From Opitutaceae bacterium (lineage in GTDB: Bacteria; Verrucomicrobiota; Verrucomicrobiia; Opitutales; Opitutaceae): a stretch of 35,017 nt of DNA. The translations under genes and the position numbers were made by a program. Location: positions 1 through 35,017 of the forward strand of contig JACMRG010000148.1 of the NCBI GenBank assembly GCA_014376585.1, written 5' to 3'. Positions 1 to 32,035 of this stretch are shown one piece after another. The notes under the pieces are model-generated. The model searched no databases and was not told where the DNA came from. It saw nothing but the letters and a program-made list of their open reading frames with translations. Numbering within the stretch: position 1 is the stretch's first letter; every line of letters starts with the position of its first letter.

Positions 1-598
1 CGTGGTGCAGTCGAGCACGATCGATCCTAAGAGCAGCGAGGAATTTTTTACGGCGGTGACGGGGCGCGGCGCGCGTTACCTCGAAGCGCCGTTCACGGGC
101 AGCAAGGCGGCGGCGGAGCTGCGGCAGGTGGTTTATTATCTCGGGGGTAACCCGGCGCTGGCGGCGGAGCTGGATGAGTTGCTGGCGCTGGTGGCCGTAA
201 CGCGGTTGTTGATCGGCGACCATCGGCAGGCCTGCACGCTCAAGCTGGCGATGAATCTCAATATCGCGGCGCAGATGGAAGCGCTTTCCGAGGCGATCAC
301 GCTGGCGCGGCGCGCGGGAATTTCGGACGACGTGTTCTTCGGTGCGCTGGCGCGGAATGCGAGCCAATCGGGATTGGCGAAACTCAAGGAACCGAAGCTG
401 CGCAGCGGAGATTTTTCGCCGCAATTTTCGGTGAAGCACATGCTCAAGGATATGCGGCTGGCTTCGGGGATCGAGGGCGTCGCGGGGTTCCCGGTGCTCG
501 ACACGATCCGCGAGCGCTATGTGGCGGCGGAAAAGGCGGGACTGGCTGACGAGGATTTTTCGGCTCTGATCAAGTTGCTCGAGACGAAGCAGGGGTGA
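1..598 (+). CDS. NAD(P)-dependent beta-hydroxyacid dehydrogenase, 3' part (3-hydroxyisobutyrate dehydrogenase family)
   Basis: This is the C-terminal two thirds of a 3-hydroxyisobutyrate / glyoxylate-succinic semialdehyde reductase family enzyme, which uses NAD(P)H to interconvert a small beta-hydroxyacid and its aldehyde or ketoacid. The Rossmann half lies outside the window. Numbered from the GTG at base 2, EAPFTGSK (about residues 28-35) is the family's substrate-binding loop. G72...K81...N85 fits the G-x-x-x-x-x-x-x-x-K-x-x-x-N catalytic pattern, with K81 as the expected catalytic lysine. The rest is the all-helical C-terminal domain. The GTG at base 2 is probably internal, because family members carry about 90 more residues upstream. 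The exact substrate cannot be told. The gene ends 208 bp before moxR, separated from it by a hairpin element. Confidence 0.85.
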   Translation, partial: VVQSSTIDPKSSEEFFTAVTGRGARYLEAPFTGSKAAAELRQVVYYLGGNPALAAELDELLALVAVTRLLIGDHRQACTLKLAMNLNIAAQMEALSEAITLARRAGISDDVFFGALARNASQSGLAKLKEPKLRSGDFSPQFSVKHMLKDMRLASGIEGVAGFPVLDTIRERYVAAEKAGLADEDFSALIKLLETKQG

Positions 599-642
599 GG
601 AGCGGTGGAAAAATCATAAAGAATTTGAGCGCAGATCAAACT

Positions 643-735
643 AACGGACGGGACGCCCGTTCCACTGCCCGAGCCGGAGCATCGGTAGGATGCCGATGCC
701 ACTTTTCGGAGGCGACGAACGCGGGCGTGGAACGG
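643..735. repeat. Nested inverted-repeat element between the dehydrogenase and moxR
   Basis: Outer arms are CCGTTCCACTGCCCG at 657-671 and CGGGCGTGGAACGG at 722-735. They are complementary over 14 bp with a single bulged T. Inside sits a second hairpin, GCATCGG (679-685) and CCGATGC (693-699), with a 7-nt loop. A weaker AACGG/CCGTT pair lies at the left edge (about 643-661). The order predicts a branched stem in RNA or cruciform DNA. It could be a dispersed intergenic repeat or part of the moxR leader. No gene is visible in 599-805. Confidence 0.6.
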
Positions 736-805
736 AAAATTAATTTGCTACATCTGGGAATGCTGCGGTTTGACGCAGGCGGAGCCGGGAGCTAGCTTCG
801 GCGGT

Positions 806-1777
806 ATGAGTGACTTCGTCTCCCCTCCGGCGCTGGCCGAATCGCGGCAGGCCATTGACCGACTGCGCGCCGCGATGCGGCGGACGATCAAGGGCAAGGA
901 CGAGGTGATTGAACAGGTGCTCGTGTGCCTCGTGGCGGGGGGGCATTTGTTGATCGAGGATTTGCCCGGGCTCGGGAAAACGACGCTCGCCTACGCGCTG
1001 GCGCGTTCGACGGAGTGTTTGTTTTCGCGCGTGCAATTCACGAGCGATCTGCTGCCGAGCGACGTGACGGGCGTGGCGATCTACGACGACCGCGAGCGTT
1101 CGTTTGTGTTCAAGCCGGGCCCGGTGTTTGCGAACGTGGTGTTGGCGGACGAGATCAACCGCGCGACGCCGAAGACGCAGTCGGCGCTGCTTGAAGTGAT
1201 GGACCGCGCGCGGGTGACGGTGGATGGGGTGGCGCATGCGGTGGGGTCGCCGTTTATGGTTTTTGCGACGCAGAATCCCGTGGACTACGAGGGGACGTTT
1301 CCGCTCCCGGAGAGCCAGATGGACCGGTTTCTGATGCGGCTGCACATGGGCTATCCGCTGCCGGCCGATGAGCTGGAAATTTTGCGCACGGCGCGGACGG
1401 GCTACGACGCGATCAAAGTGGATGCAGTCGTGACAAAGGAGGAAGTGCTGCGGCTGCAGGCGTTGGTGGCGCAGGTATTCGTGGAGGACTCGGTGTTGGA
1501 TTATATCTTACGGATCGTGACAGCCACGCGCACGGAGGCGGAGTTTAAGGCGGGCGTGAGCGTGCGCGGCGGGCTGGCGCTGCGCACGGCGGCGCAGGCA
1601 CGGGCGCTGGTGCTGGGTCGGGATTTTGTGCTGCCGGACGATGTGAGCGCGCTCGCGGCGGCGACGCTGACGCATCGGCTCGCGCCGGCGCGGCAGACGA
1701 GCGACGCATTGGAGGAACGTCGCGTGGTGGGGGCGACGTTGAAGCGGATTTTGGCGAATGTGGCGCAGCCGAGCTGA
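806..1777 (+). CDS. MoxR-family AAA+ ATPase
   Basis: A 323-residue AAA+ chaperone-like ATPase of the MoxR family, a cytoplasmic partner that usually acts on products of adjacent DUF58 or VWA genes. A Walker A motif (PGLGKTT, about residues 54-60) is followed by Walker B VVLADEINRA (D115, E116), the MoxR-typical run TPKTQSALLEVM, and the sensor-1 segment FATQNPVDYEGTFPLPESQ. The C-terminal lid domain carries a GVSVRGGLAL motif. I chose ATG 806 over an in-frame TTG at 770 because the extra 12 residues are not family-like. It is followed after 48 bp by DUF58 and then a transglutaminase, a common three-gene cluster. No strong ribosome binding site is seen. Confidence 0.93.
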   Translation: MSDFVSPPALAESRQAIDRLRAAMRRTIKGKDEVIEQVLVCLVAGGHLLIEDLPGLGKTTLAYALARSTECLFSRVQFTSDLLPSDVTGVAIYDDRERSFVFKPGPVFANVVLADEINRATPKTQSALLEVMDRARVTVDGVAHAVGSPFMVFATQNPVDYEGTFPLPESQMDRFLMRLHMGYPLPADELEILRTARTGYDAIKVDAVVTKEEVLRLQALVAQVFVEDSVLDYILRIVTATRTEAEFKAGVSVRGGLALRTAAQARALVLGRDFVLPDDVSALAAATLTHRLAPARQTSDALEERRVVGATLKRILANVAQPS

Positions 1778-1792
1778 GGGTGCCGGAATTTC

Positions 1793-1895
1793 GGACGCTG
1801 AACATCGAACTTCGAACGCTGAACTTTGAAGGCTGAAGTGAAGACTCCGGAACGTTCGACGTTGGAAGTTCGACGTTCGGAGTTCGATGTTCGCC
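1793..1895. repeat. Inverted pair of 7-bp tandem-repeat arrays over the DUF58 gene start
   Basis: The left array (1793-1841) is six to seven heptads built on GAAC plus three variable bases, with unit starts at 1793, 1800, 1807, 1814, 1821 and 1828. The right array (1854-1895) is six heptads built on GTTC plus three variable bases, with unit starts at 1854, 1861, 1868, 1875, 1882 and 1889. The right array is close to the reverse complement of the left, with a 12-bp centre, so the whole can fold into a long imperfect hairpin. It begins 15 bp after the moxR stop and runs into the apparent N-terminal coding region of the DUF58 gene. Confidence 0.85.
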
Positions 1896-3130
1896 CGGGC
1901 CCGGCGGCGGGCTGGTCGGGGCCGGGTGCAAAGAGGCGGCGGCGGAAATTTCGTTGGAGCGAGCTGGTGTGGGCGCTGGTGTGGCCGCGGGGCGGGGAGC
2001 GGATCGTGCCGACGGTGTCGGGGGTCATCCTGATCGCGCTGTGCTTTGGCCTCGGCACGGCGGCGTATAATTCTTCGAGCAATATTTTGTTTATCACGCT
2101 TTCGCTGCTGCTGGCGTGTCTGATTTTGAGCGGCGTGCTCTCGTGGTTGAACTTGCGAGGCGTGGCGTGGCGGCTCGAGGTGAAGCCGCCGTTGCGCACG
2201 GGCCAAGTGGCTAGTGCGGGGCTGGCGCTGCGCAACGGGAAGAAATTTTTGCCGACCTATGGATTGTGGTTCGAGTGGGTGGCGCGGCCGATGGCGGACC
2301 CGATGGCGGGGGCTAAAGCGGAATCCACGGTGACGGGGAAGGGCATCGATGTGCGGGCGATTTTAAAGAAAGCCGAGGCGGAGGCGGTGCGGGGCAATGT
2401 GACGTTGCGCGAGCGGTTGGAAGCGCAGGGCGAGGTGCAACTGGACTGGAGTTTCGCGCCGGCGCGGCGCGGGCGGTTGCGCGTGGAGCTGGCGGGCGTG
2501 GGCTCGCTGTTTCCGTTTGGATTTTTGAGGAAATACGTGGGCACGGAGCTGCGGGCGGATGTGATCGTGTGGCCGGCGGCGGTGGAGTATCGGCGGTTGG
2601 CGGTAAACGGGGCGCGGCGGATTGGCGGCAGTGAGCAGCGGACGCGCGTGGGGAGCGGGGGCGATTTGCTGGCGCTGCGGCGGTATGCGGACGGCGACTC
2701 GCACCGGCTGATTCATTGGAAGGCGAGCGCGCGGACGCAGCAGTTGCTCGTGCGGCAATTCATGGCGGAGAGCAGCCAGGGTTATGCGGTGTGGTTGCGC
2801 ACCGACGCTGAGCTGTGGCCGCGGGCGGAGCAGTTTGAAATGCTGGTGAGTTTCGCGGCGACACTCGTGGAGGATTTGTTTCGGGCGGGGCAGTTGCACT
2901 CGCTGGCGCTGGATGGGGAGCCGGCGGTGGCGGTGCGGCACGGGCGCGACTTGGAAACGTGGCTGGATCGGCTGGCGGTGGTGGAGTTCAAGGCGGCGAC
3001 GGCGGATGGGGAGCGGGGCGGGGGCACCGCGCCGACCGGTGGGGGCGGGAGAAACATGCTCGTCTTCGCGCCAGATGGGACGCACGGGGCGGCGGCTTAC
3101 ATCGACGGGCAACGGGCGGCGGTGACGTGA
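1826..3130 (+). CDS. DUF58 domain membrane-associated protein
   Basis: A DUF58 protein of about 434 residues if read from TTG 1826. It has a basic N-terminal stretch, two adjacent transmembrane segments (IVPTVSGVILIALCFGLG and ILFITLSLLLACLILSGVL, roughly residues 61-105), then a soluble part containing the DUF58 signature RRYADGDSHRLIHWKASAR around residues 285-303. The C-terminal half resembles the VWA-like fold of the family. The start is uncertain. TTG 1826 lies inside a heptad repeat, so the first roughly 25 residues would be translated repeat. GTG 1838 and GTG 1967 are in-frame alternatives, and I see no convincing ribosome binding site. DUF58 proteins are usually encoded beside MoxR ATPases; the cellular role is poorly defined. 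The last codons abut the next gene: the stop at 3128-3130 is 5 bp from ATG 3136. Confidence 0.88.
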   Translation: MKAEVKTPERSTLEVRRSEFDVRPGPAAGWSGPGAKRRRRKFRWSELVWALVWPRGGERIVPTVSGVILIALCFGLGTAAYNSSSNILFITLSLLLACLILSGVLSWLNLRGVAWRLEVKPPLRTGQVASAGLALRNGKKFLPTYGLWFEWVARPMADPMAGAKAESTVTGKGIDVRAILKKAEAEAVRGNVTLRERLEAQGEVQLDWSFAPARRGRLRVELAGVGSLFPFGFLRKYVGTELRADVIVWPAAVEYRRLAVNGARRIGGSEQRTRVGSGGDLLALRRYADGDSHRLIHWKASARTQQLLVRQFMAESSQGYAVWLRTDAELWPRAEQFEMLVSFAATLVEDLFRAGQLHSLALDGEPAVAVRHGRDLETWLDRLAVVEFKAATADGERGGGTAPTGGGGRNMLVFAPDGTHGAAAYIDGQRAAVT

Positions 3131-3135
3131 GCGCG

Positions 3136-5454
3136 ATGAAGACGGACTTGGGAAATTACCAAACTGCGGCATCCCGCCGCAGCCACTTCAGGCGGCCGCA
3201 GTTGGCGCTGGATGAGATGCGGCAGCTCAAGTGGCTGCTCGGCGGGATGCTGATTTTGCTCTCGGTGTGGACGGTGTTCTACCTCGACGTCGACGCGTGG
3301 ACGTTGATGGGGCTGACGACGCTCTCGGTGTTGGCGGGGCTGGTGTGGCCGGCTTGGCCGGCGCGGCTGCCGAGGATTTTTCACACGCTGGCGTTTCCGT
3401 TCATCGTGATGTTTTTCATCGGGGACCTGTGGCTGAAGGGCGAGATGCTGCCGGCGATGGTGCGGCTGGATATTCTGCTGCTTTTGTATCGCGGCATCAG
3501 TTACCGGCAGCGGCGCGACGACCTGCAGGTGATCGTGCTGGGGCTTTTTCTGATCGTGGTGGCGGGCGTGCTGACGGTGTCGCTCACGTTTGCGGTGCAG
3601 ATCCTGGCGTTCACGGGGTGCGCGCTGGCGTTCCTACTCGTGATCACGCTAACGGACAGCGTGGAGGTTAAGGCGACTGCGGAGGCGAAGAAAGGGCTGC
3701 GAGGGCTGATCACTTGGAACGCCCCCGAGACGGGCCTGCCGGCCTGGGCGGAGCGAGTGGATTGGCGGCGGTTGGGGCGGCGACTGCGGGCGGTGGCGGA
3801 CTGGCGGGTGCTGGTGCTCGGCGGGATTTTATTTGCGGGCGTGGTCGGAGTGTCGGCGCTGCTATTTTTGGCGATTCCGCGGTTTCAGATGGATAACAGC
3901 CTTTTTCTTGAGCGCTTTATTTCCAAGAAAGCGCGGTCGGGTTTTAACGATACGATCAAGTTTGGGGACGTTTCGGAGATCCAACAGGACACGAGCGTGG
4001 CGTTGAGCGTGGATGTATCGGACCCGAAGCAGGTGCCGGCGGCGCCGTATTGGCGGATGCTGGTGCTCGATGACTATCGCGATGGCGGGTTCCGGCTGTC
4101 GCCGCGGATGAGCAAAGAGGTGTTTGCGCGGGAGCGGACGGGAACGGCGCTGCGCGGGGAAGCGCGGCCGAAGCTCGGCCTGCAGGCGCAGTGGACGTTT
4201 TACATGGAGTCGGGTGTGAGCCGGTATCTGCCGCTGCCGGGGCGGTTCGAGCAATTGCGGTTTCGTGAAGTGCAGAACTTCCGGCCGAGCGCGGAGCTGG
4301 GGGTGGTGGCGCTACGGGCCGAGCCGGCGACGATGACGGCGTATCGGGTGGAGGGGATGGATTTCGCGGAGGCGCTGCCGGACCCGATTTTCGCAGAGCG
4401 GTGGAAGAGCTGGTCGGAGTCCGCGGCGGGTGGCCGCGCGGAGGGGCTGATGCAGCGGAGGCTGGAGTTAAACGCGGCGGACCGGGGGGCGTTGGCGCGG
4501 GTGTTGGCGCAGATCGGCGTTGGGAAGCGCCCGGAGGAATTTAGCCGCGCCGCGAGCGCCTGGCTGACGAGCAATCACGGCTATTCGTTGTCGCCGAAAA
4601 TTCCCGGCGGCGCAGGGGATGCGCTCGTGCGTTGGACGGCTTCGAGGGAAGCGGGGCACTGTGAGCTGTTTTCCGGGGCGATGGTGGTGCTGGCGCGCGA
4701 GGCGGGATTTGCGGCGCGCGTGGTGATCGGTTTCCGCGGGGGTTCGTGGAACGGTTACTCCAATAATTTTACGGTGCGGAATTCCGACGCGCATGCGTGG
4801 GCGGAGATTTGGGACGCCGGGCGCGGGGCGTGGCTGCGGGCCGATGCGCTGGCGCCGGCGGCAACAGCGGCGGACGCGGCGGCGGCGGGCGACGGGGCGA
4901 TCGCGCGGCGGTTGGATCGGAGTTGGACGGCACGCTTCGACAGTCTGCGGGTATTTTGGTATCGAAGGATCGTGAGTTTCGACGCGCGGTCGCAGGTGGA
5001 GACTTTGCAGGCGGTCAAGGCGGCGACGGAAACGACCGGGAAGCGGCTGCGGGAGTCGCTGGAGCGGGCCGTGGCGGCGTTGAAAGCGTGGCTCGCGGGG
5101 CCTTGGGATGCGCGTCGCGTCGCGGGATTGTCGGGAGTGATCGCGGGGCTCGTGGGCGCGGGTTGGGCGATGCGGAATTTTCGATTTTGGATGCGCGATT
5201 TTCGTTGGGGGCGGGGCGGGCGAAAGGTCGATCCCGTGCGGCGGGAAGCGGGGCGGCTGCTGGCGCGGCTGCGCGAGCCGCTGAGTGACGGCGCGCGCGC
5301 GGCGGCGGGTGCGGCGGAGGAAGAGAGTGTGCGACTCGAATTGGAGCGGCTGCGGTTTGGGCCGCAGGCAACATGGACGCAGCCGGAGGCGGTGCTGCGG
5401 CGGGCGCGGGGCGCGTTGAAAACCCGGCGGCGTGAGCGCGTCAGTCGGTCTTGA
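3136..5454 (+). CDS. TgpA-like membrane transglutaminase
   Basis: A polytopic protein of 772 residues. The N-terminal third is a DUF3488-type membrane domain with five or six hydrophobic segments, and another hydrophobic segment lies near the C-terminus after the enzyme domain. The periplasmic transglutaminase/protease-like core carries the triad C509 (in GHCELFSGAM), H553 (in SDAHAWAEIW) and D570 (in LRADALAP). It is the third member of the moxR-DUF58-transglutaminase cluster, and in other bacteria such proteins are thought to act on envelope proteins or peptides. I chose ATG 3136 because it starts 5 bp after the DUF58 stop. An in-frame extension upstream (to 2959) overlaps DUF58 and is not family-like. 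The 3' end overlaps the convergent mrdA gene by 14 bp. Confidence 0.9.
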   Translation: MKTDLGNYQTAASRRSHFRRPQLALDEMRQLKWLLGGMLILLSVWTVFYLDVDAWTLMGLTTLSVLAGLVWPAWPARLPRIFHTLAFPFIVMFFIGDLWLKGEMLPAMVRLDILLLLYRGISYRQRRDDLQVIVLGLFLIVVAGVLTVSLTFAVQILAFTGCALAFLLVITLTDSVEVKATAEAKKGLRGLITWNAPETGLPAWAERVDWRRLGRRLRAVADWRVLVLGGILFAGVVGVSALLFLAIPRFQMDNSLFLERFISKKARSGFNDTIKFGDVSEIQQDTSVALSVDVSDPKQVPAAPYWRMLVLDDYRDGGFRLSPRMSKEVFARERTGTALRGEARPKLGLQAQWTFYMESGVSRYLPLPGRFEQLRFREVQNFRPSAELGVVALRAEPATMTAYRVEGMDFAEALPDPIFAERWKSWSESAAGGRAEGLMQRRLELNAADRGALARVLAQIGVGKRPEEFSRAASAWLTSNHGYSLSPKIPGGAGDALVRWTASREAGHCELFSGAMVVLAREAGFAARVVIGFRGGSWNGYSNNFTVRNSDAHAWAEIWDAGRGAWLRADALAPAATAADAAAAGDGAIARRLDRSWTARFDSLRVFWYRRIVSFDARSQVETLQAVKAATETTGKRLRESLERAVAALKAWLAGPWDARRVAGLSGVIAGLVGAGWAMRNFRFWMRDFRWGRGGRKVDPVRREAGRLLARLREPLSDGARAAAGAAEEESVRLELERLRFGPQATWTQPEAVLRRARGALKTRRRERVSRS

Positions 5455-18344: not shown

Positions 18345-19316
18345 ATGGCCCGCCGCTCGATTTCTTCCCGCAAGCTCGCAGACAGTCGCGCACCGGCGGC
18401 GTTTGCGGGCGACATTACCGGGTTCATTGGGTTTCTCGATCTGGAGCGTGGGCTCTCGGAACATACGCTCGAAAACTACCAGCGCGATCTCGACCAGGCC
18501 GCTACGTGGCTCGCGAAGCAGGGCGTCGCCGATTGGCGCACGGTCACGGCGGCGCAGGCGGGGGAGTGGCTGCATTCGCTCACGCGCGCGGACTTCGCGG
18601 TGGCGAGCCTCGCGCGCAAGCTCACGGCGCTGCGCGTCTTCGCCCGGTATCTCGTGCGCGAGAAAACCCGCCCCGATGATTTCACCGCGCTGCTGGCCGG
18701 GCCGAAGCTCGGGCGACGCTTACCCGAGACACTTTCTGGAGACGATATCACGCGCCTCCTCGCAGCGCCCAACGGCGGAGACCCGGCGTCGCTGCGCGAC
18801 CGGGCGCTGTTGGAGTTGTTTTATTCGAGTGGTCTGCGCGTGTCGGAGTTGGGCGGGCTCATGCTGCAACAGATCGATCTTGAGCAGGGATTTCTGCGCG
18901 TGTTCGGCAAGGGCTCGAAGGAGCGCGTGGTGCCCATCGGCGGACGGGCGAGCGCGGCGCTCACGACTTACCTCGTCGCGGGTCGGCCGCATTTCGTGAA
19001 GACACGCACGGGCAGCCAGCTCTTCCTGAGCAACCGCGGCGGGGCGCTCTCGCGGATCACGCTTTGGTTTATCGTCAAAAAACACGCGCGTCGCGCCGGG
19101 ATCGCGCAGAACGTGAAGCCCCATTTGCTGCGGCATTCGTTTGCGACGCATCTGCTCAGCGGCGGCGCGGACCTGCGCGCGATTCAGGAGATGCTCGGTC
19201 ACGCCAGCATCGCGACGACGCAGATCTATACGGCGGTCGAACCGCAGCGGTTGTTGGATCAGCACAAGAAATTCCATCCGCGCAATCGGGACTGGACGGC
19301 TCCGGGCTTGCTCTGA
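18345..19316 (+). CDS. xerD: Site-specific tyrosine recombinase XerC/XerD
   Basis: A 323-residue integrase-family recombinase, of the type that resolves chromosome dimers at dif during division. The N-terminal SAM-like DNA-binding domain (about 22-110) includes FLDLERGLSEHTLENYQRDL. The catalytic domain contains the full set R165 (SGLRVSEL), K192 (GKGSKERVVP), H260 and R263 (HLLRHSFATHLL), H286 (LGHASIATTQIYT) and nucleophile Y295. Length and absence of phage-integrase arms favour Xer over a mobile integrase. XerC and XerD cannot be separated confidently by eye. The stop (TGA at 19314-19316) overlaps the next gene's ATG by one base. Confidence 0.92.
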   Translation: MARRSISSRKLADSRAPAAFAGDITGFIGFLDLERGLSEHTLENYQRDLDQAATWLAKQGVADWRTVTAAQAGEWLHSLTRADFAVASLARKLTALRVFARYLVREKTRPDDFTALLAGPKLGRRLPETLSGDDITRLLAAPNGGDPASLRDRALLELFYSSGLRVSELGGLMLQQIDLEQGFLRVFGKGSKERVVPIGGRASAALTTYLVAGRPHFVKTRTGSQLFLSNRGGALSRITLWFIVKKHARRAGIAQNVKPHLLRHSFATHLLSGGADLRAIQEMLGHASIATTQIYTAVEPQRLLDQHKKFHPRNRDWTAPGLL

Positions 19317-20106
19317 TGGGAAGCGATGGGTTGCTTGGCGCCCGCATGTTTTTCGGAGGTTATTCCATCCCGGCTCTGATCGAACTCGCAGCCAAGGTCG
19401 CGTGCATCGTGCATGTGATCCGCCAAGGCCGGAGCTTGGCGTGGATTTGGCTCATTTTGCTTTTCCCGGTCGGTGGTCCGTTGATTTATTTCTTCGTTGA
19501 GATCTGGCCCGACCTTGGTCGTGGCAGGTCTGGTCCGGAATTCAGTTTTCGGCTGCCGCAGAATCCGACGCGAAACATCGCGCGACTGACGGAGGAACTG
19601 GAGTATTCGAGCACGGTGGAAAAACGCGTCCAGCTCGCCCGCGCCTACGCCGCCGCGGAACGTCACGCCGAGGCCGTCGAGACGATCCGCGCGTGTCTGA
19701 CCGGTGTCTTCAAAGACGATCCGCCGCTCACGTTCGAACTCGCGGAGATTTGTTTCGGCGCCGGTCTCCATCGGGAATCGCTGGACGCACTGTCGGTGTT
19801 GGACTGGCTTGAGTTCAGGGGGGCCGCCACGAGCGCTTCATTCTGGCGGCGCGTTGCCACGAAAAACTCGGCGACGTCGCGGCGGCGAGGGCGGCCTACG
19901 AGGAGTCATTTCCCACGGCGGTAGGCGAGGAGGCGCGCTGTCGCCACGCACAATTGTGCGCGGCAGCAGGTGAATCGGCGGCGGCCCGCGCGCTGTTTGA
20001 AGAGATCGTTCGCAACGCGAAACATGGCGGCGGCAACTATCGCCGGTTGAATCGACCGTGGATCAAGCAGGCCAAGACCGGACTTGAGGCTTTGGCGGAC
20101 AAGTGA
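19316..20106 (+). pseudogene. Membrane protein with PLD-nuclease-N-like head and TPR-like tail, frameshifted
   Basis: The gene begins with ATG 19316 one base inside the xer stop. Two membrane segments (about residues 13-33 and 41-61, ending GGPLIYFFVEIWPDLGRG) resemble the PLDc_N two-helix domain. The rest is a soluble TPR-like helical region (YAAAERHAEAVETIRACLTG, then LTFELAEICFGAGLHRESLDALSVL). At a run of six G (19818-19823) the frame changes by -1. The continuation, from QGGRHERFILAARCHEKLG to QAKTGLEALADK, is clearly coding up to the TGA at 20104-20106. Read in the original frame the protein ends within 35 codons as nonsense sequence. A one-base loss, a sequencing error or a programmed -1 slip at the G run would each explain it. 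Confidence 0.75.
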
Positions 20107-20133
20107 GCCGGCCCGTGGGACCTGCGTGGCGCG

Positions 20134-20484
20134 TTACGGCCGTGACAGCGCCGCGAGTTCTTTTTCAAAGCGCGTTTGTGAGGCTTTGCGCTTTTGGGCG
20201 CTGGCCTGTTGAAGAGCTCGCTGCTGTTCGCCGGCGTCATCGGAGTTGGATGCGATGTCGCGTTCCCCGATTTTGCGGGCTTCGATGATCGTTGCGTATT
20301 TGCCGGTGCCGTAAAGCGAGCTGGCCCGGTCATTCACTTGGTGCAGGCGTAATTCTTGCATGAATACAGATGACGGCGAGATCGCCAAAACATTCGTATA
20401 GTGTGGCTTAGTGTGCTTTATTTCTGCGTGAGCCGTGCAGCCGGATCCCGCGATAATCCCGGCGACCAAGGTGAGGGGTAGCAT
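20134..20484 (-). CDS. Small exported hypothetical protein
   Basis: A 116-residue protein with a short hydrophobic signal (MLPLTLVAGIIAGSGC, then TAHAE). The C at residue 16 is only a weak lipobox, so cleavage by signal peptidase I after AHA is equally possible. The mature part is hydrophilic with a glutamine/lysine-rich helical tail ending EKELAALSRP. Codon use matches the neighbours. The start is ATG 20484, and no other in-frame start precedes the signal. It is convergent with the TPR gene and divergent from the membrane protein at 20624. I do not recognise a family. Confidence 0.6.
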   Translation of the reverse strand: MLPLTLVAGIIAGSGCTAHAEIKHTKPHYTNVLAISPSSVFMQELRLHQVNDRASSLYGTGKYATIIEARKIGERDIASNSDDAGEQQRALQQASAQKRKASQTRFEKELAALSRP

Positions 20485-26722: not shown

Positions 26723-27646
26723 ATGAACTACGCGTGCCTGTTTCTCACTCTGATCGCGGTGGTGCCGCCCGCCGCGGCGGTAATCCCGGCGTCGTCCGCG
26801 CTGCAGGCGATCGTGGACCGTGCGGCGCAGACGGCGCTGACCGAGTTTGTTGAACGGAAACTCCAACCCCACCAACTCGCGATCACGCTGGTCGATTTGC
26901 GCGACCCGAATCAGCCGCAGCGGGCGAGTTTTCGCGGGGATCAGCCGATTTATCCGGCGAGTGTGATCAAGCTCTTTTATCTCGCCGCAACGCACCGCTG
27001 GCTGGAAGACGCAAAACTCACGGATACGCCGGAGCTGCGCCGGGCGTTGCGCGATATGATCGTAGATTCATCCGATGACGCCACGCACTACGTCATCGAC
27101 CTGCTCACGGGCACAACGAGCGGGCCGGAGTTGTCGGGGGCTGAACTCGCGGTCTGGTTTGAGAAACGATCGGTGGTGACGCGCTACTTCGCGCAGCTGG
27201 GCTACACCGGCGTCAATGCCAGCAAGAAACCGTGGGGCGACGGGCCGTATGGGCGCGAGTCGCAGGCCATCAAGCTGCTTGAGCCGAAGCGCAATATGCT
27301 CACCACCGATGCTACCGCGCGGTTGTGGGTGGAGATAGCGACCGGACGCTGCGTGACGGCGGCGCGCAGTGCGGAGATGTTGCAACTCCTCGCCCGTGAT
27401 CCGGCGTCCACGGATGCCGATCCCGACAATCAGGCGAAATTTACGGGCCCCGCATTGCCCGCCGGCGCGAAGCTATGGTCGAAAGCGGGCTGGACCAGCC
27501 AGACGCGGCACGACGCGGCGCTGATCGAGCTGCCCGGTGGCGCGCGGTTTGTGCTCGTGGTGTTTACGACGGATCACGCCAGTGAGCGCACGCTCATCCA
27601 GTCTGTGGCGCGCGTCGTGGTGAGCGGCATGATGGGCGCGCGCTAG
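26723..27646 (+). CDS. Class A beta-lactamase-fold serine hydrolase
   Basis: A 307-residue exported protein with a signal peptide (MNYACLFLTLIAVVPPAAA). The serine hydrolase motifs are S80-V-I-K83 (YPASVIKLFYL), S117-D-D119 in place of SDN, and SKAGW near residue 252 in place of KTG. Such divergent members (beta-lactamase2 family) are often of unknown substrate and not true resistance enzymes. The class A omega-loop glutamate is not evident, and the long EKR...YTGVNASKKPWGDGPYGRES insert is unusual, so I would not call it a beta-lactamase. Shine-Dalgarno-like GTGGAG lies 3 bp before ATG 26723. It follows rapA by 65 bp. Confidence 0.85.
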   Translation: MNYACLFLTLIAVVPPAAAVIPASSALQAIVDRAAQTALTEFVERKLQPHQLAITLVDLRDPNQPQRASFRGDQPIYPASVIKLFYLAATHRWLEDAKLTDTPELRRALRDMIVDSSDDATHYVIDLLTGTTSGPELSGAELAVWFEKRSVVTRYFAQLGYTGVNASKKPWGDGPYGRESQAIKLLEPKRNMLTTDATARLWVEIATGRCVTAARSAEMLQLLARDPASTDADPDNQAKFTGPALPAGAKLWSKAGWTSQTRHDAALIELPGGARFVLVVFTTDHASERTLIQSVARVVVSGMMGAR

Positions 27647-27732
27647 AAATCTACGGGCCGGTGAGAAGGTGATTGGGGCGGGGATTGCCCTTGCGGATGC
27701 GCACGGGGGTTTCCAGAACCACCGCCCCTCTC

Positions 27733-28602
27733 ATGCAGACCCAAGAAATTTCCCTCGAACAGATCGACATCTATGGCGGGACCCAAGCCCGTGCCCAGAC
27801 CAACGAGGATGCGATCGACGGCTATGGCGAAGAGATGAACCGCGGAACGGTGTTTCCGCCCATCGCGCTCTATTTCGATGGCACGACCTATTGGCTTGCG
27901 GACGGGTTTCACCGCTACCTCGCGGCCAAGCGGATCGGTCGGACCGCGATCACAGCCGAGGTGCAACCCGGAGGGCGGGTCGATGCTTTGAAGCATGCGC
28001 TCGGCGCCAACGCGGCCAACGGTGTGCACCGCAACAACGCGGATAAACGCAATGCCGTTGAGATCGCGCTGGAGGAATGGCCGGATCGGGCGAATCCGGT
28101 GATCGCGGAGATCTGCCGGGTGTCGGTGGAGTTTGTCCGCACCACGCGCGCGCAGCTCACGAAGTCGGGCCACCTTGCGCGGGCAGAGACCGTCGTCGGT
28201 CGCGACGGCAAGGAATACCCGGCGCAGATCGAGCGCGAGGCGCGGGGCAAGGCGGAAGGATCGTCCAGCGATAACAAGGGTGGCGGCGGTGGTGGCGGCC
28301 GGCCCGGCTCAAAGGGCGGGGGTGGATCGCTCGGCGGCGGCAACATGGAGATCGAGCGCGAGGCGCGGGCGATGATCCGGCGCGGCGAAATCAATCCCTT
28401 CGAGTTACCGACGATTTTCTCGGCCAACGCCGACGACTATGCGGCCACGGTTATTACCCTCCTCGGCAAGATGAAACGTGAAGACCCGAAGCGCAAAGCG
28501 GGTCTGTTGCGGATCAAACAGTGGGTCGAGAAGGCACTGGCCGGCGAAGTCGAGGTGCCGCCCGCCGAAGCCGAGGCCAGCCTCGCGGCCGAGCCGTCGT
28601 GA
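27733..28602 (+). CDS. ParB-like nuclease-domain protein with glycine-rich linker
   Basis: A 289-residue soluble protein. Residues 1-110 are a ParB/Srx-like domain (ISLEQIDIYGGTQARAQTNE, then FPPIALYFDGTTYWLADGFHRYLAA, with GFHRYLAA in place of the GExRxxA box). A helix-turn-helix-like stretch (EICRVSVEFVRTTRAQL) and VGRDGKEYPAQIEREA follow. A low-complexity glycine linker (about residues 180-205) separates this from a C-terminal helical domain (ARAMIRRGEINPFELPTIF). It is not a chromosome-partition ParB: there is no parA neighbour and no Box II helix-turn-helix of that family. The start is ATG 27733. Its role is probably DNA binding or regulation. Confidence 0.75.
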   Translation: MQTQEISLEQIDIYGGTQARAQTNEDAIDGYGEEMNRGTVFPPIALYFDGTTYWLADGFHRYLAAKRIGRTAITAEVQPGGRVDALKHALGANAANGVHRNNADKRNAVEIALEEWPDRANPVIAEICRVSVEFVRTTRAQLTKSGHLARAETVVGRDGKEYPAQIEREARGKAEGSSSDNKGGGGGGGRPGSKGGGGSLGGGNMEIEREARAMIRRGEINPFELPTIFSANADDYAATVITLLGKMKREDPKRKAGLLRIKQWVEKALAGEVEVPPAEAEASLAAEPS

Positions 28603-28624: not shown

Positions 28625-29016
28625 TTAATTCTTCGGCGGGATCAAGGCTCGGATGCGTGGGTCGCGCAGAAAGAGACCGCCCCAGATCGCCACACCCAAC
28701 ACGATGTGGGTATAAACCGGATCGCCGACGCGCAGGTGCGTCTGGATCGCGCCACCGAGGTATCCCGTGAGTAGGATCGCGCCCAGCACGGAGGTGCGCG
28801 GAATCGAATAGATCAACGTGCAGGAGAGTTCGAGAATGCCGAGGCCGACGGTGTGGCGGAGCGGGACGCCGAGGTGCTCAAAGCCCTTGGCGAGTTCGGG
28901 TGAGCTGCTAACTTCATCGCGGCACTAAAGAGCAACATTAACGCGGGCGCGGTCGTCATGACACGGACAGTCCAGAGGGCGGCTTTGGAAACGGGAGCAG
29001 TGGGGGTGATTTCCAT
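28625..29016 (-). pseudogene. DoxX-like small membrane protein, frameshifted
   Basis: The N-terminal part (start ATG 29016, LWTVRVMTTAPALMLLFSAAMKLA) and the C-terminal part (SSPELAKGFEHLGVPLRHTV, IPRTSVLGAILLTGYLGGA, HLRVGDPVYTHIV, WGGLFLRDPRIRALIP) together match the four-helix DoxX_2 family. They lie in frames that differ by one base, and the break is at about 28903-28911. Without the shift the protein would be about 130 residues. It is the last gene of the ArsR operon. Confidence 0.85.
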
Positions 29017-29106
29017 AGGGAGTGAGTTGTGGGACGAAGCGGCGTGGAGGATGAATGCGGGTGCGGAACCGGCAATCTCGCGATGAGCAACGGAGCGGGG
29101 TGACGT

Positions 29107-29570
29107 TTAGGCCAGCAACGGCCGGTTGAATTGGGCGCGCCAATTTTTACGGTCCGGGCTGGATTCGGGGCCGGCGAGGTAGCATTCCCACCAATCTTCC
29201 GCCGGGCGGTGGCCTTGGGTTTCGATCCAGTCGTTGAATTGGCCCCCCGCCGCGCCGAGGCCTTCGAAACTGCCGTTACAGACCGTGCGGGCGACTTTCA
29301 TCGCCGGCCATTGACTGAGCTTGACGCGGCCGGCGGCGGTGACGGATTTTGCGACGGCACGCTGATTTCAAAGTCCCACGCATCGGGAGACATTTTGCGA
29401 TGATGCGTGAACCACGGGCCTGCCGGCTTGATGTCCTGCGCCGCGAGAGTCGCCATCAGCTCCTGCAAGCCGGGCCCAATGACGTTTTGAATTTCGTCCT
29501 CGGGGATCTGGAGGTGGCTGATGGCCGTGGGTTGCGCCGCGGTCTGGATGATTTGAGGGGCGTCGATCAT
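29107..29570 (-). pseudogene. GyrI-like small-molecule-binding domain protein, frameshifted
   Basis: From ATG 29570 the frame codes for a GyrI-like effector domain (AAQPTAISHLQIPEDEIQNV, then GPWFTHHRKMSPDAWDFEISVP). At about 29351-29357 one base is missing. Restoring a G gives VPVAKSVTAAGRVK and joins the second half (QWPAMKVARTVCNGSFEGLG, FNDWIETQGH, WWECYLAGPESSPD). The unrepaired frame stops at about 29299. Confidence 0.87.
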
Positions 29571-29600
29571 GGTGGGGGTTGGTGATGAGGCGCACTCATT

Positions 29601-30165
29601 CTACGAACGATGGGGACGCTCCCGGACACGGCCCTCGCGAAATTCGTCATCACACGGTCTTTTAGGTTTCCCCAAATGAGTCTCAAGCTGATCCCAGGTG
29701 CCGCCCCAGCCTTGGCGCATGCTTTCGTGGTTGTCGTCGAAGCTCCGCTGCTGGGCGGCCGGGGCGTTGAACGCGGTCGAATGAATAGAGACGGTGGTCT
29801 TGCCGGCGTGCTCGGTGAACGTGACCATAATGAGTATCTCCGACAGCCAGGGATCGGGAAAGGGCGGGGGAACGACTTCGCCCGCGGGATTTGAAAACGA
29901 GTTATTCTACACGAGGCGATCAGGCGCGTTGATCTCAATAAATTTCCAGCAGACCCACATCTCGTGGCCGTCGGGAGTTTTTATGCAGACGCGGAAAATG
30001 CCCGTCGGGTCGGAAATCTAGTGGGGCTGTCGGACTGGTAAAACCTTTGGGGCCGAACCATTGCTTCAGCTCCTCCACCTCGGTCCACGCACGCCGGACG
30101 ACGGCGCGCGGCGCGGCGAATTCGCGTGAGATGAGGAAGGGCAGTGATGCGCCCGGTGGCAGCGC
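29601..30165 (-). pseudogene. SRPBCC/AHSA1-family domain protein 1, frameshift plus nonsense codon
   Basis: The sequence SLPFLISREFAAPRAVVRRA and ELKQWFGPKGFT begins an AHSA1-like lipid/ligand-binding fold. At 30001-30003 an extra G changes the frame; without it the text runs LDFRPDGIFRVCIKTPDG. A TAG at 29907-29909 then replaces what family members have as Tyr (DRLV-stop-NNSFSNPAGE). Downstream, MVTFTEHAGKTTVSIHS and HESMRQGWGGTWDQLETHL are typical of the family's C-terminus. No initiation codon is found; the sequence joins the end of the preceding gene directly, so a stop/start pair seems to be lost too. Confidence 0.85.
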
Positions 30166-30169
30166 GGGA

Positions 30170-30638
30170 TGCTCGGAGAGACGGGCGGCGTCGGCTTGCC
30201 GCCCGCGAACGCGCCGAATTCCCTGATGACGAAATCGCGATTTTCAGCGGAGGGAAAAACCATGCGGAGCGTGACCTTGGTCTGGGCCGCGCTGAGCGCG
30301 GCGAAACTCCAAGTGGCAACGAAGCTCATGCCCGGGCCGCCCTCGCGATGACCGCCGTGCATGTAAACGATGCGCTCAGGCTTCACGACTTCGCGGAAGA
30401 CACTGTGGTTGGGGTAATTTGTCCCGTCGGGGCCGCGCATCGTGTGCTTCCAGGCGCCGCCGGGACGAACGTCCATTTCCTCGATGGTCGTGGTGAAGCC
30501 GCGCGGGCCCCACCCGTGCACCACGTGCTTCGGATCGGTGATGGCCGACCACACGAGTTCGCGCGGCGCGCCGAGGGTGCGGGTGAGGAAAATATCCCGG
30601 TCCGCGGTGTCGGAGGCAGAGGAATTTTTGGAAGACAC
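30170..30638 (-). pseudogene. SRPBCC/AHSA1-family domain protein 2, C-terminal frameshift
   Basis: From GTG 30638 most of the domain is intact: TRTLGAPRELVWSAITDPKH, HGWGPRGFTTTIEEMDVRPG, MRGPDGTNYPNHSVFREVV, and MVFPSAENRDFVIREFGAFA. The last helix is shifted. Adding one G near 30195 restores GGKPTPARLSEHPA, the usual ending; as it stands the frame runs on without a family-like end to 30066. The main fold might still form, so this may be partly functional. Confidence 0.8.
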
Positions 30639-30660
30639 GGCGGATAAATTGAGGGGCGAG

Positions 30661-31115
30661 AGGGTAGGTGAGACGCGACGCGGTCGAAGTTCTGTTCGTT
30701 GGCGGGTAGGACGAAGGCTCTCACGCGGTTCGCGTCGTCGGATGAATCGAAGACCATGCGCCAGCTGCGCGTGGCCCGATCTGCGGTCGCAGCGAACGTC
30801 GGGGTCATTTCCAAGGCGTGGACCTGCTCCCGACGGCGGAAGACACTCCGCGCGGCGGGTATCACCGCGGTGAACACCGATGCATTGGGATAGGCCGCAC
30901 CGTCGGGGCTGTGCATCGTGAGGCGCCAGCGACCGCCCGGAGCGAAATCAAATTCGTGGATAATGTTTGGTTAAACCGCTCGGTCCCGACCATCGCGCGA
31001 GGCGGATGGGATCGGCGAAGGCGGCGAAGACCGCGGCGGGTAGAGCGGTGAAGACGCGGTTGGAGATGATTTCGAAGTCAGACCGATAATCGAGGCGGTT
31101 GGCCGGCGGGTTCAT
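30661..31115 (-). pseudogene. SRPBCC/AHSA1-family domain protein 3, frameshifted
   Basis: The ATG at 31115 overlaps the natural arsR stop as ATGA, a sign of translational coupling. The N-terminal half reads DFEIISNRVFTALPAAVFAA, and the frame then breaks at a run of three T (30966-30968; AAA in the coding strand). Removing one A gives FTNIIHEFDFAPGGRWRLTM, joining the second half (MHSPDGAAYPNASVFTAVIP, WRMVFDSSDDANRVRAFVLP, NEQNFDRVASHL). The repaired frame has no stop before the next gene. The end coordinate is approximate. Confidence 0.83.
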
Positions 31116-31519
31116 GGATTATCTTTTTGTTTACGGGTGCGGGCCGGGCGGGCGGCGGCGGCGGGCTTTTTGGCGTCGGCCTGTAATTTTTCCAGGTAGC
31201 CGTCGAGGCGGTCGAAGCTCTGCTCTCAGTGCCGGCGATTGGACCCCAGCCAATCGACGGCCTGTTTCAACGGCTCGGCCTTGAGGTGGCTCGGGCGCGA
31301 TTGGGCGTCGCGGCTGCGCTCGATGAGGCCGCTGCGTTCCGGCACGCGGAGGTGCTTAGAGATGGCCGGCAGATTCATGTCATGCGGCTCGGCGAGCGCG
31401 GTGACGGTGGTGTGGCCGGCGATCAAACGGGCGAGGATCGCGCGGCGCGTGGGATCGGCGAGGGCGGCGAAGGTGAGGTTGAGCTGGTCCGACGAAAGCA
31501 GGAGCACGCTGTCGCGCAT
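31112..31519 (-). pseudogene. ArsR-family transcriptional regulator with in-frame TGA
   Basis: A winged-helix repressor of the ArsR type usually encoded with SRPBCC genes: FAALADPTRRAILARLIAGH, then MNLPAISKHLRVPERSGLIE and HLKAEPLKQAVDWL. It ends early at a TGA (31226-31228) where relatives have Trp. The same frame then continues with EQSFDRLDGYLEKLQADAKK to a TGA at 31112-31114 overlapping the next ATG. Two further substitutions hit conserved positions (Leu to Pro in the HLxVxERAGL helix, Trp to Ser in the AQWRP motif). The start is ATG 31519. The DNA-binding part could still be made. Confidence 0.87.
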
Positions 31520-31521
31520 AC

Positions 31522-31537
31522 TTAACCAATCGGTTAA
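31522..31537 (-). promoter_or_regulatory. Likely ArsR-type operator
   Basis: TTAACC (31522-31527), AATC, GGTTAA (31532-31537): a perfect 6-bp inverted repeat two bases upstream of the arsR ATG. Such AT-rich palindromes close to the start are typical autoregulatory sites of SRPBCC-linked ArsR proteins. The site is intact although the operon is not. Confidence 0.65.
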
Positions 31538-31639: not shown

Positions 31640-32035
31640 TTAAGCTGATGTGGCGGGCTTGAGCGGTCTCAGCGTGGTCGCGTTCTGGACGGCGGCGAGC
31701 AACGTCGCCTCAGAAATGGGCTTCATCAGAATCGAGGAGACGCCGAGCGCACGGATCTTCGGCAACACGGCATGGTCGGCCGGAGAGGCGAGCATGATGA
31801 CGGGGATCGCGGTGAGATCGGGCTTCGACTTGAGCATCTCGAGCAGTTCCACGCCATTCATGATGGGCATATTCACATCGAGGAGGATCAGATCGGGCAG
31901 GGACCGATCCATGGCGAAGAGCGCGTTGTAGCCGTTGGTGGACTCGGTAATATCGCAGGCGTAGCCGGCGAGAACGCGTTGAACGAACTGACGCATGGCT
32001 TTGGCATCATCAACGGCGAGAATCTTGGTAAGCAT
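31640..32035 (-). CDS. Single-domain response regulator (CheY-like)
   Basis: A 131-residue receiver domain without an output domain. Acidic pocket residues D9 and D10 (ILAVDDAKAMR), phospho-acceptor D53 (LILLDVNMPIMNG) and K105 (LMKPIS) are present. A serine (in MLASPADH) stands at the usual Thr/Ser position. It could act in chemotaxis, in a phosphorelay or as a stand-alone regulator. No kinase is adjacent; the broken kinase at 22425-23611 is 8 kb away. The start is ATG 32035. Confidence 0.92.
   Translation of the reverse strand: MLTKILAVDDAKAMRQFVQRVLAGYACDITESTNGYNALFAMDRSLPDLILLDVNMPIMNGVELLEMLKSKPDLTAIPVIMLASPADHAVLPKIRALGVSSILMKPISEATLLAAVQNATTLRPLKPATSA

Follow-up and report, generated by a model that had tools for sequence, protein, structure and literature searches.

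Probable recent decay of an arsR-SRPBCC-GyrI-DoxX operon in an uncultured member of the Opitutaceae

Two described systems come closest to the locus reported here. In Shigella (PMC3218036), gene decay is clustered in particular operons, different lineages show convergent losses, and it is proposed that selection on the rest of an operon relaxes once one of its genes has gone. In Salmonella, the survey by Kuo and Ochman (2010, PMC2916853) describes pseudogenes that are mostly lineage-specific, are caused by small indels or stops and show little acceleration of divergence, with 346 of 378 carrying a single inactivating mutation. The locus studied here, an operon on the minus strand of an Opitutaceae genome, is similar to the Shigella case in its operon-concentrated decay and convergent loss, but the Shigella strains are host-adapting pathogens with extensive decay, whereas this is an uncultured genome in which the tested neighbouring genes are almost all intact. 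It shares with the Salmonella pseudogenes lineage-specific loss via small indels and stops with little acceleration of divergence, but differs in having three lesions in one fused gene and seven in the operon; on this count, the relic has probably persisted longer than the typical Salmonella pseudogene of that survey. The process itself is well known, being ordinary operon decay. The comparisons below indicate that this is very probably a real and fairly recent gene loss of the ordinary kind rather than a sequencing mistake, and we consider it highly likely that a once working operon is no longer useful in its lineage and is decaying by small mutations.

Organization of the operon and its lesions

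The window, which is the whole stretch of DNA that was analysed (35,017 nucleotides), is one contig of genome G000, an assembly of 435 contigs and 5.24 Mb with a completeness of 91.5%. The raw frames of the window were set against intact sequences from other genera within the family as well as from outside it, and the locus was compared with that of the sister species G004, the nearest relative found, whose assembly comprises about 750 contigs. The following features are located on the minus strand, listed in the direction of transcription:

31640..32035, minus strand, response-regulator gene, intact; the upstream neighbour, which served as the anchor for comparing the locus across the genus
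31522..31537, minus strand, operator-like perfect inverted repeat TTAACC-N4-GGTTAA, intact, just upstream of the arsR start
31112..31519, minus strand, arsR pseudogene with a recognisable HTH region and an in-frame TGA at 31226-31228
30640..31115, minus strand, SRPBCC (AHSA1-like) pseudogene 3 with a frameshift at about 30958-30967; the low end is approximate
29601..30638, minus strand, two-domain SRPBCC pseudogene (SRPBCC 2 + SRPBCC 1) with frameshifts near 30195 and 30001 and a TAG at 29907-29909
29107..29570, minus strand, GyrI-like pseudogene with a frameshift near 29352
28625..29016, minus strand, DoxX-like pseudogene with a frameshift near 28905

The initial annotation, made from the window alone, had proposed seven lesions in this region. 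All seven are present, at the proposed positions or a few bases away, and each is supported by homologues; when aligned to intact homologues, every gene of the operon carries a disabling lesion. The arsR frame, starting from 31519, meets the proposed TGA at a position occupied by Trp in 17 of 17 aligned homologues (19 arsR loci), and after this stop recognisable family sequence continues up to the stop at 31112-31114, which overlaps the next ATG. Homology of SRPBCC 3 switches frame between approximately 30967 and 30958, where a lesion at 30966-30968 had been predicted. Its downstream frame is open to 30383, about 90 codons beyond the end of the separate relatives, and this lack of an own stop may represent an eighth lesion. 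From SRPBCC 2 to SRPBCC 1, homology switches frame near 30195 and again near 30001, followed by the TAG at 29907-29909, as had been predicted for all three sites. The GyrI-like gene is split over two frames with the switch inside the predicted interval (about 29351-29357); its halves are 53% and 42% identical to the GyrI-like protein of G382 (locus L221), a single intact frame of 154 aa to which both halves align. Similarly, the DoxX-like gene is found in two frames with the switch within the predicted 28903-28911, while its orthologue in G004 is one intact frame of 131 aa.

The number of genes requires a correction. Six consecutive broken genes had been annotated, and every gene is indeed hit, but a count of six does not agree with the organization in relatives. 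The relative of SRPBCC 2 lies in an ORF of at least 300 aa with at least two SRPBCC domains at 13 of 16 loci (among L076-L095), and the SRPBCC genes are separate at four more loci from other lineages (L021-L024). In the window, the two domains are separated by a linker of about the same short length as that of the fused proteins, and the frameshift near 30195 is inside this linker. Since SRPBCC 2 and SRPBCC 1 are usually fused in relatives and this lesion is located in the linker, the sequence is most simply read as five genes that carry seven lesions between them, with three affecting the fused SRPBCC gene. A frameshifted two-domain SRPBCC protein can thus pass for two genes, and if the genes were annotated one at a time, the fragments would be entered as short hypothetical proteins. 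In the arsR operons of the family (L076-L095), SRPBCC (AHSA1) domains occur fused with two to three per protein, in proteins of up to about 500 aa.

Pfam profiles matched by the window pieces were PF01022/PF12840 (ArsR HTH), PF08327 (AHSA1) and PF13564 (DoxX_2); in the same profile search the SRPBCC 3 and SRPBCC 1 pieces had no match. The ArsR HTH, AHSA1 and DoxX_2 domains lie on one strand and in the same order as at loci L076-L081. Intact operons from other genera (G139, G137 and G081; L076-L078) likewise have arsR first, SRPBCC next and DoxX last on one strand, and share the operator motif with the window. Unlike the window, some intact operons of other genera contain additional SRPBCC genes or show an unassigned gap ahead of DoxX, and their ORFs include none matched by the GyrI piece. 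Neither Rfam families (at the gathering threshold) nor tRNAs were found in the window.

The locus in the sister species and across the genus

The G004 genome is colinear with the window from 21.2 to 35.0 kb, and the sequence flanking the operon on either side is 81-85% identical at the nucleotide level. Between GyrI and the response regulator, a 198-bp SRPBCC scrap (86% identity) is the sole remnant in this species. Its GyrI gene is interrupted at a different place from that of the window, and its DoxX gene is whole, although arsR-SRPBCC is lost and GyrI is broken. For four of the seven window lesions (arsR, SRPBCC 3 and the two in SRPBCC 1), G004 retains no corresponding sequence, and among the three that can be compared (linker, GyrI and DoxX) none is common to both genomes.

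A DoxX match was obtained in eight of the 13 genus genomes searched, including the broken copy of the window, the only broken one seen; the gene is thus open in seven of 13. In six genomes (G003, G007, G009, G010, G011 and G012) DoxX and the response regulator are immediate neighbours. No DoxX was found in G001, G002 and G008, where the response regulator is present, nor in G005, which has a regulator match, and G006 had neither a DoxX nor a response-regulator match at the limits used. The loci of G008, G002 and G001 (L114-L116) lack both DoxX and the gene at 27673-28602 of the window, and their response regulator adjoins the gene corresponding to 26723-27646, so this site differs between members of the genus. 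No genome of the genus other than G000 and G004 was seen to carry the GyrI gene.

In the genus, the arsR-SRPBCC-GyrI block has usually been lost and DoxX retained. The claim that the operon recently lost selection as a unit therefore needs to be divided: a recent loss of selection fits most of our tests, but the words "as a unit" hold for the G000 genome and fail at the level of the genus, where DoxX is open in most of the genomes with a match. In a tree of DoxX proteins (29 rows), G000, G004, G007, G009, G011 and G012 group together with modest support (81/96); outside the genus support is too weak to separate a gain of arsR-SRPBCC in the ancestor of G000 and G004 from its loss elsewhere. As a tentative and rather doubtful extension, the block may have been lost repeatedly in the genus from a shared ecological cause, with DoxX usually left behind and the window representing the one case in which DoxX is dying too. 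If so, these genomes would provide stages of operon loss, for instance after disappearance of the molecule that the operon answered. The states observed form a graded series: the operon is complete in other genera, represented only by DoxX in six congeners, part-deleted in G004, and made up entirely of pseudogenes in the window.

A close intact second copy was sought in the own assembly and not found: the nearest other SRPBCC is 41% identical, the nearest other ArsR 30%, and no other DoxX was matched. A second copy could be missing from this fragmented assembly, which is 91.5% complete. At the other end of the window, positions 590-5443 had no match to ORFs of G009 or G011, though the ORFs on either side did match; this segment may be an insertion in the G000 lineage.

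Lesion density, assembly error and the timing of the decay

The operon contains seven lesions in 2,895 bases (2.4 per kb). Among the window controls, which comprised 22 genes compared with a relative, one frameshift was found in 19,928 coding bases; relative ORFs on the opposite strand or out of frame with the window gene were excluded from this comparison, and 590-5443 and the last 1.7 kb, having no compared relative, were left out. Three control genes showed four stops in the longer 5' reading of the relative, upstream of their own starts, which were scored as start differences (scored as lesions, the window control would be five). Ten of 68 match rows had no coding pattern, one of them being window 20131-20442, a stretch without a known gene. 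For controls on other contigs, 40 stretches of G000 were compared with 60 stretches of G001; six of 23 rows were out of frame (five with stops) and were dropped, and in the 17 rows kept, representing 14 distinct genes (15,207 bases), no lesion was found. The lesion rate of the operon is therefore not matched in the controls, with a P value for the density difference of approximately 4e-6, which is a guide only since the region was picked by eye. The initial annotation had counted two lesions elsewhere in the window, for which it gave no positions; the contrast stands, but only one of them was confirmed. This frameshift, at about 19816-19825 on the plus strand, is located in a run of six G, and G004 has the stretch in one ORF; it could be an error or a slippery run. 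The affected gene lies downstream of a recombinase-like gene (18345-19316).

A noisy or low-coverage contig stretch, behind which the frames would be intact in the cell, has to be considered for a metagenome-type assembly, as false pseudogenes produced by errors have been documented in bacterial genomes (PMC11017572) and the sole other confirmed lesion of the window sits in the six-G run. Such an origin is nevertheless very unlikely, as had been argued from the outset: there are seven events in 2.9 kb versus one across the 35 kb of coding sequence that was tested, two of the seven lesions are substitutions creating stops, the other five are frameshifts, none of them in a run of more than four identical bases, and, most importantly, the separately assembled G004 genome lacks most of the operon and is broken at a different place in what is left. 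An assembly error of this kind would hardly be expected in both of two genomes assembled independently, and the synteny with G004 on both flanks speaks against a chimeric join. That the pieces stay recognisable would also suit programmed frameshifting or stop readthrough, by which the frames would be joined and the proteins made; with seven sites of differing kinds, two different stop codons, no common motif visible by eye in the short stretches around the sites, and relatives that are read in plain single frames, this appears extremely improbable. Gene decay is the preferred explanation of the lesions.

The time at which this decay began can be approached from the surviving pieces, which are small samples of 34 to 92 codons each. 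Between G000 and G004, the dN/dS values, compared as the initial annotation had suggested, were 0.16, 0.17, 0.31, 0.18 and 0.18 for pieces of 57, 73, 66, 34 and 92 codons, against 0.27, 0.24, 0.17 and 0.05 in four intact neighbours (range 0.05-0.27), and third codon positions hold the most differences in every operon piece, so that a coding-like pattern is retained. In absolute terms, dN of the operon pieces (0.07-0.29) lies above that of most neighbours (0.03-0.10), and dS was 0.46-1.08 versus 0.20-0.49 (window 28625-29578 and 30163-30359 versus L014). The excess of dN allows for some earlier relaxation, most in the C-terminal piece of GyrI (dN/dS 0.31, 59% identity). Residue changes in DoxX peculiar to G000 versus G004 numbered 5 v 6 and 3 v 5, roughly the same amount of change in either species since they split, and the relative-rate controls gave 23 v 22, 2 v 1 and 8 v 3. 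Most divergence of the pieces therefore seems to have arisen under constraint. Of the columns that are invariant in the family, the SRPBCC pieces deviate at 16 of 67, 15 of 51 and 17 of 53, which exceeds the deviation of most relatives; a longer decay of SRPBCC than of arsR and DoxX is not claimed, since distant intact proteins depart similarly or more in several cases.

These values bear on whether the operon died once, before G000 and G004 diverged, leaving both with a neutral remnant in which each species then accumulated lesions of its own. Damage in both species, with GyrI broken in both, would fit such an old loss, as would the raised absolute dN and the ratio of the GyrI C-terminal piece. 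We regard it as unlikely, given that no lesion is common among the three comparable ones, DoxX is whole in G004, and dN/dS is far from 1 in spite of a dS of 0.46-1.08, with third positions differing most. The coding-like evolution of the surviving pieces favours late, separate losses instead, and the three comparable lesions not being common to both species makes separate losses likelier. We infer that the operon was lost late and separately in the G000 and G004 lineages after their split, and that once one gene was dead the remaining genes of the operon would have lost constraint. The loss is best called fairly recent, a dating derived from small pieces with absolute divergence above most neighbours.

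Operator, predicted function and GyrI relatives

The intact state of the ArsR-type operator, which had been pointed out beforehand, was confirmed: the perfect repeat at 31522-31537 has no second copy, either in the window or elsewhere in the 5.24-Mb assembly. The motif is located upstream of intact arsR at 11 of 19 loci and is absent at eight, and the G137 copy has one difference from the window in the 21 bases shown. Since its twelve bases are a small target, the intactness of the operator next to a truncated arsR probably says little on present use.

The ArsR proteins examined pass the general ArsR/SmtB model and do not reach the cut-off set for the SdpR autorepressor model; the best structure match of ArsR is 3f6o, a probable regulator. 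Seven solved structures were matched by SRPBCC 2, all named hypothetical, uncharacterised or conserved hypothetical. Based on its domains, the intact operon would encode an ArsR repressor, one single-domain and one two-domain SRPBCC/AHSA1 protein, a GyrI-like binder and a DoxX-like membrane protein, and would probably be autoregulated by ArsR. A small, perhaps hydrophobic, molecule may relieve ArsR at TTAACC-N4-GGTTAA, and the SRPBCC and GyrI-like proteins may bind that same molecule.

Relatives of GyrI were not found in plasmids. They were present in one of 200 family genomes, which is the window's own (G004 was not listed among those drawn), and in five of 387 genomes of the phylum at E 0.01, one of which (G382, outside the genus) is close and intact. 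The GyrI-like profile PF06445 was not matched by the window pieces, and the C-terminal piece of G004 reached 25.3 bits (E 2e-5) against a curated cut-off of 26. The intact GyrI-like gene of G382 (L221:1288-1752, minus strand) is located near SRPBCC domains and a gene that resembles VOC/glyoxalase proteins.
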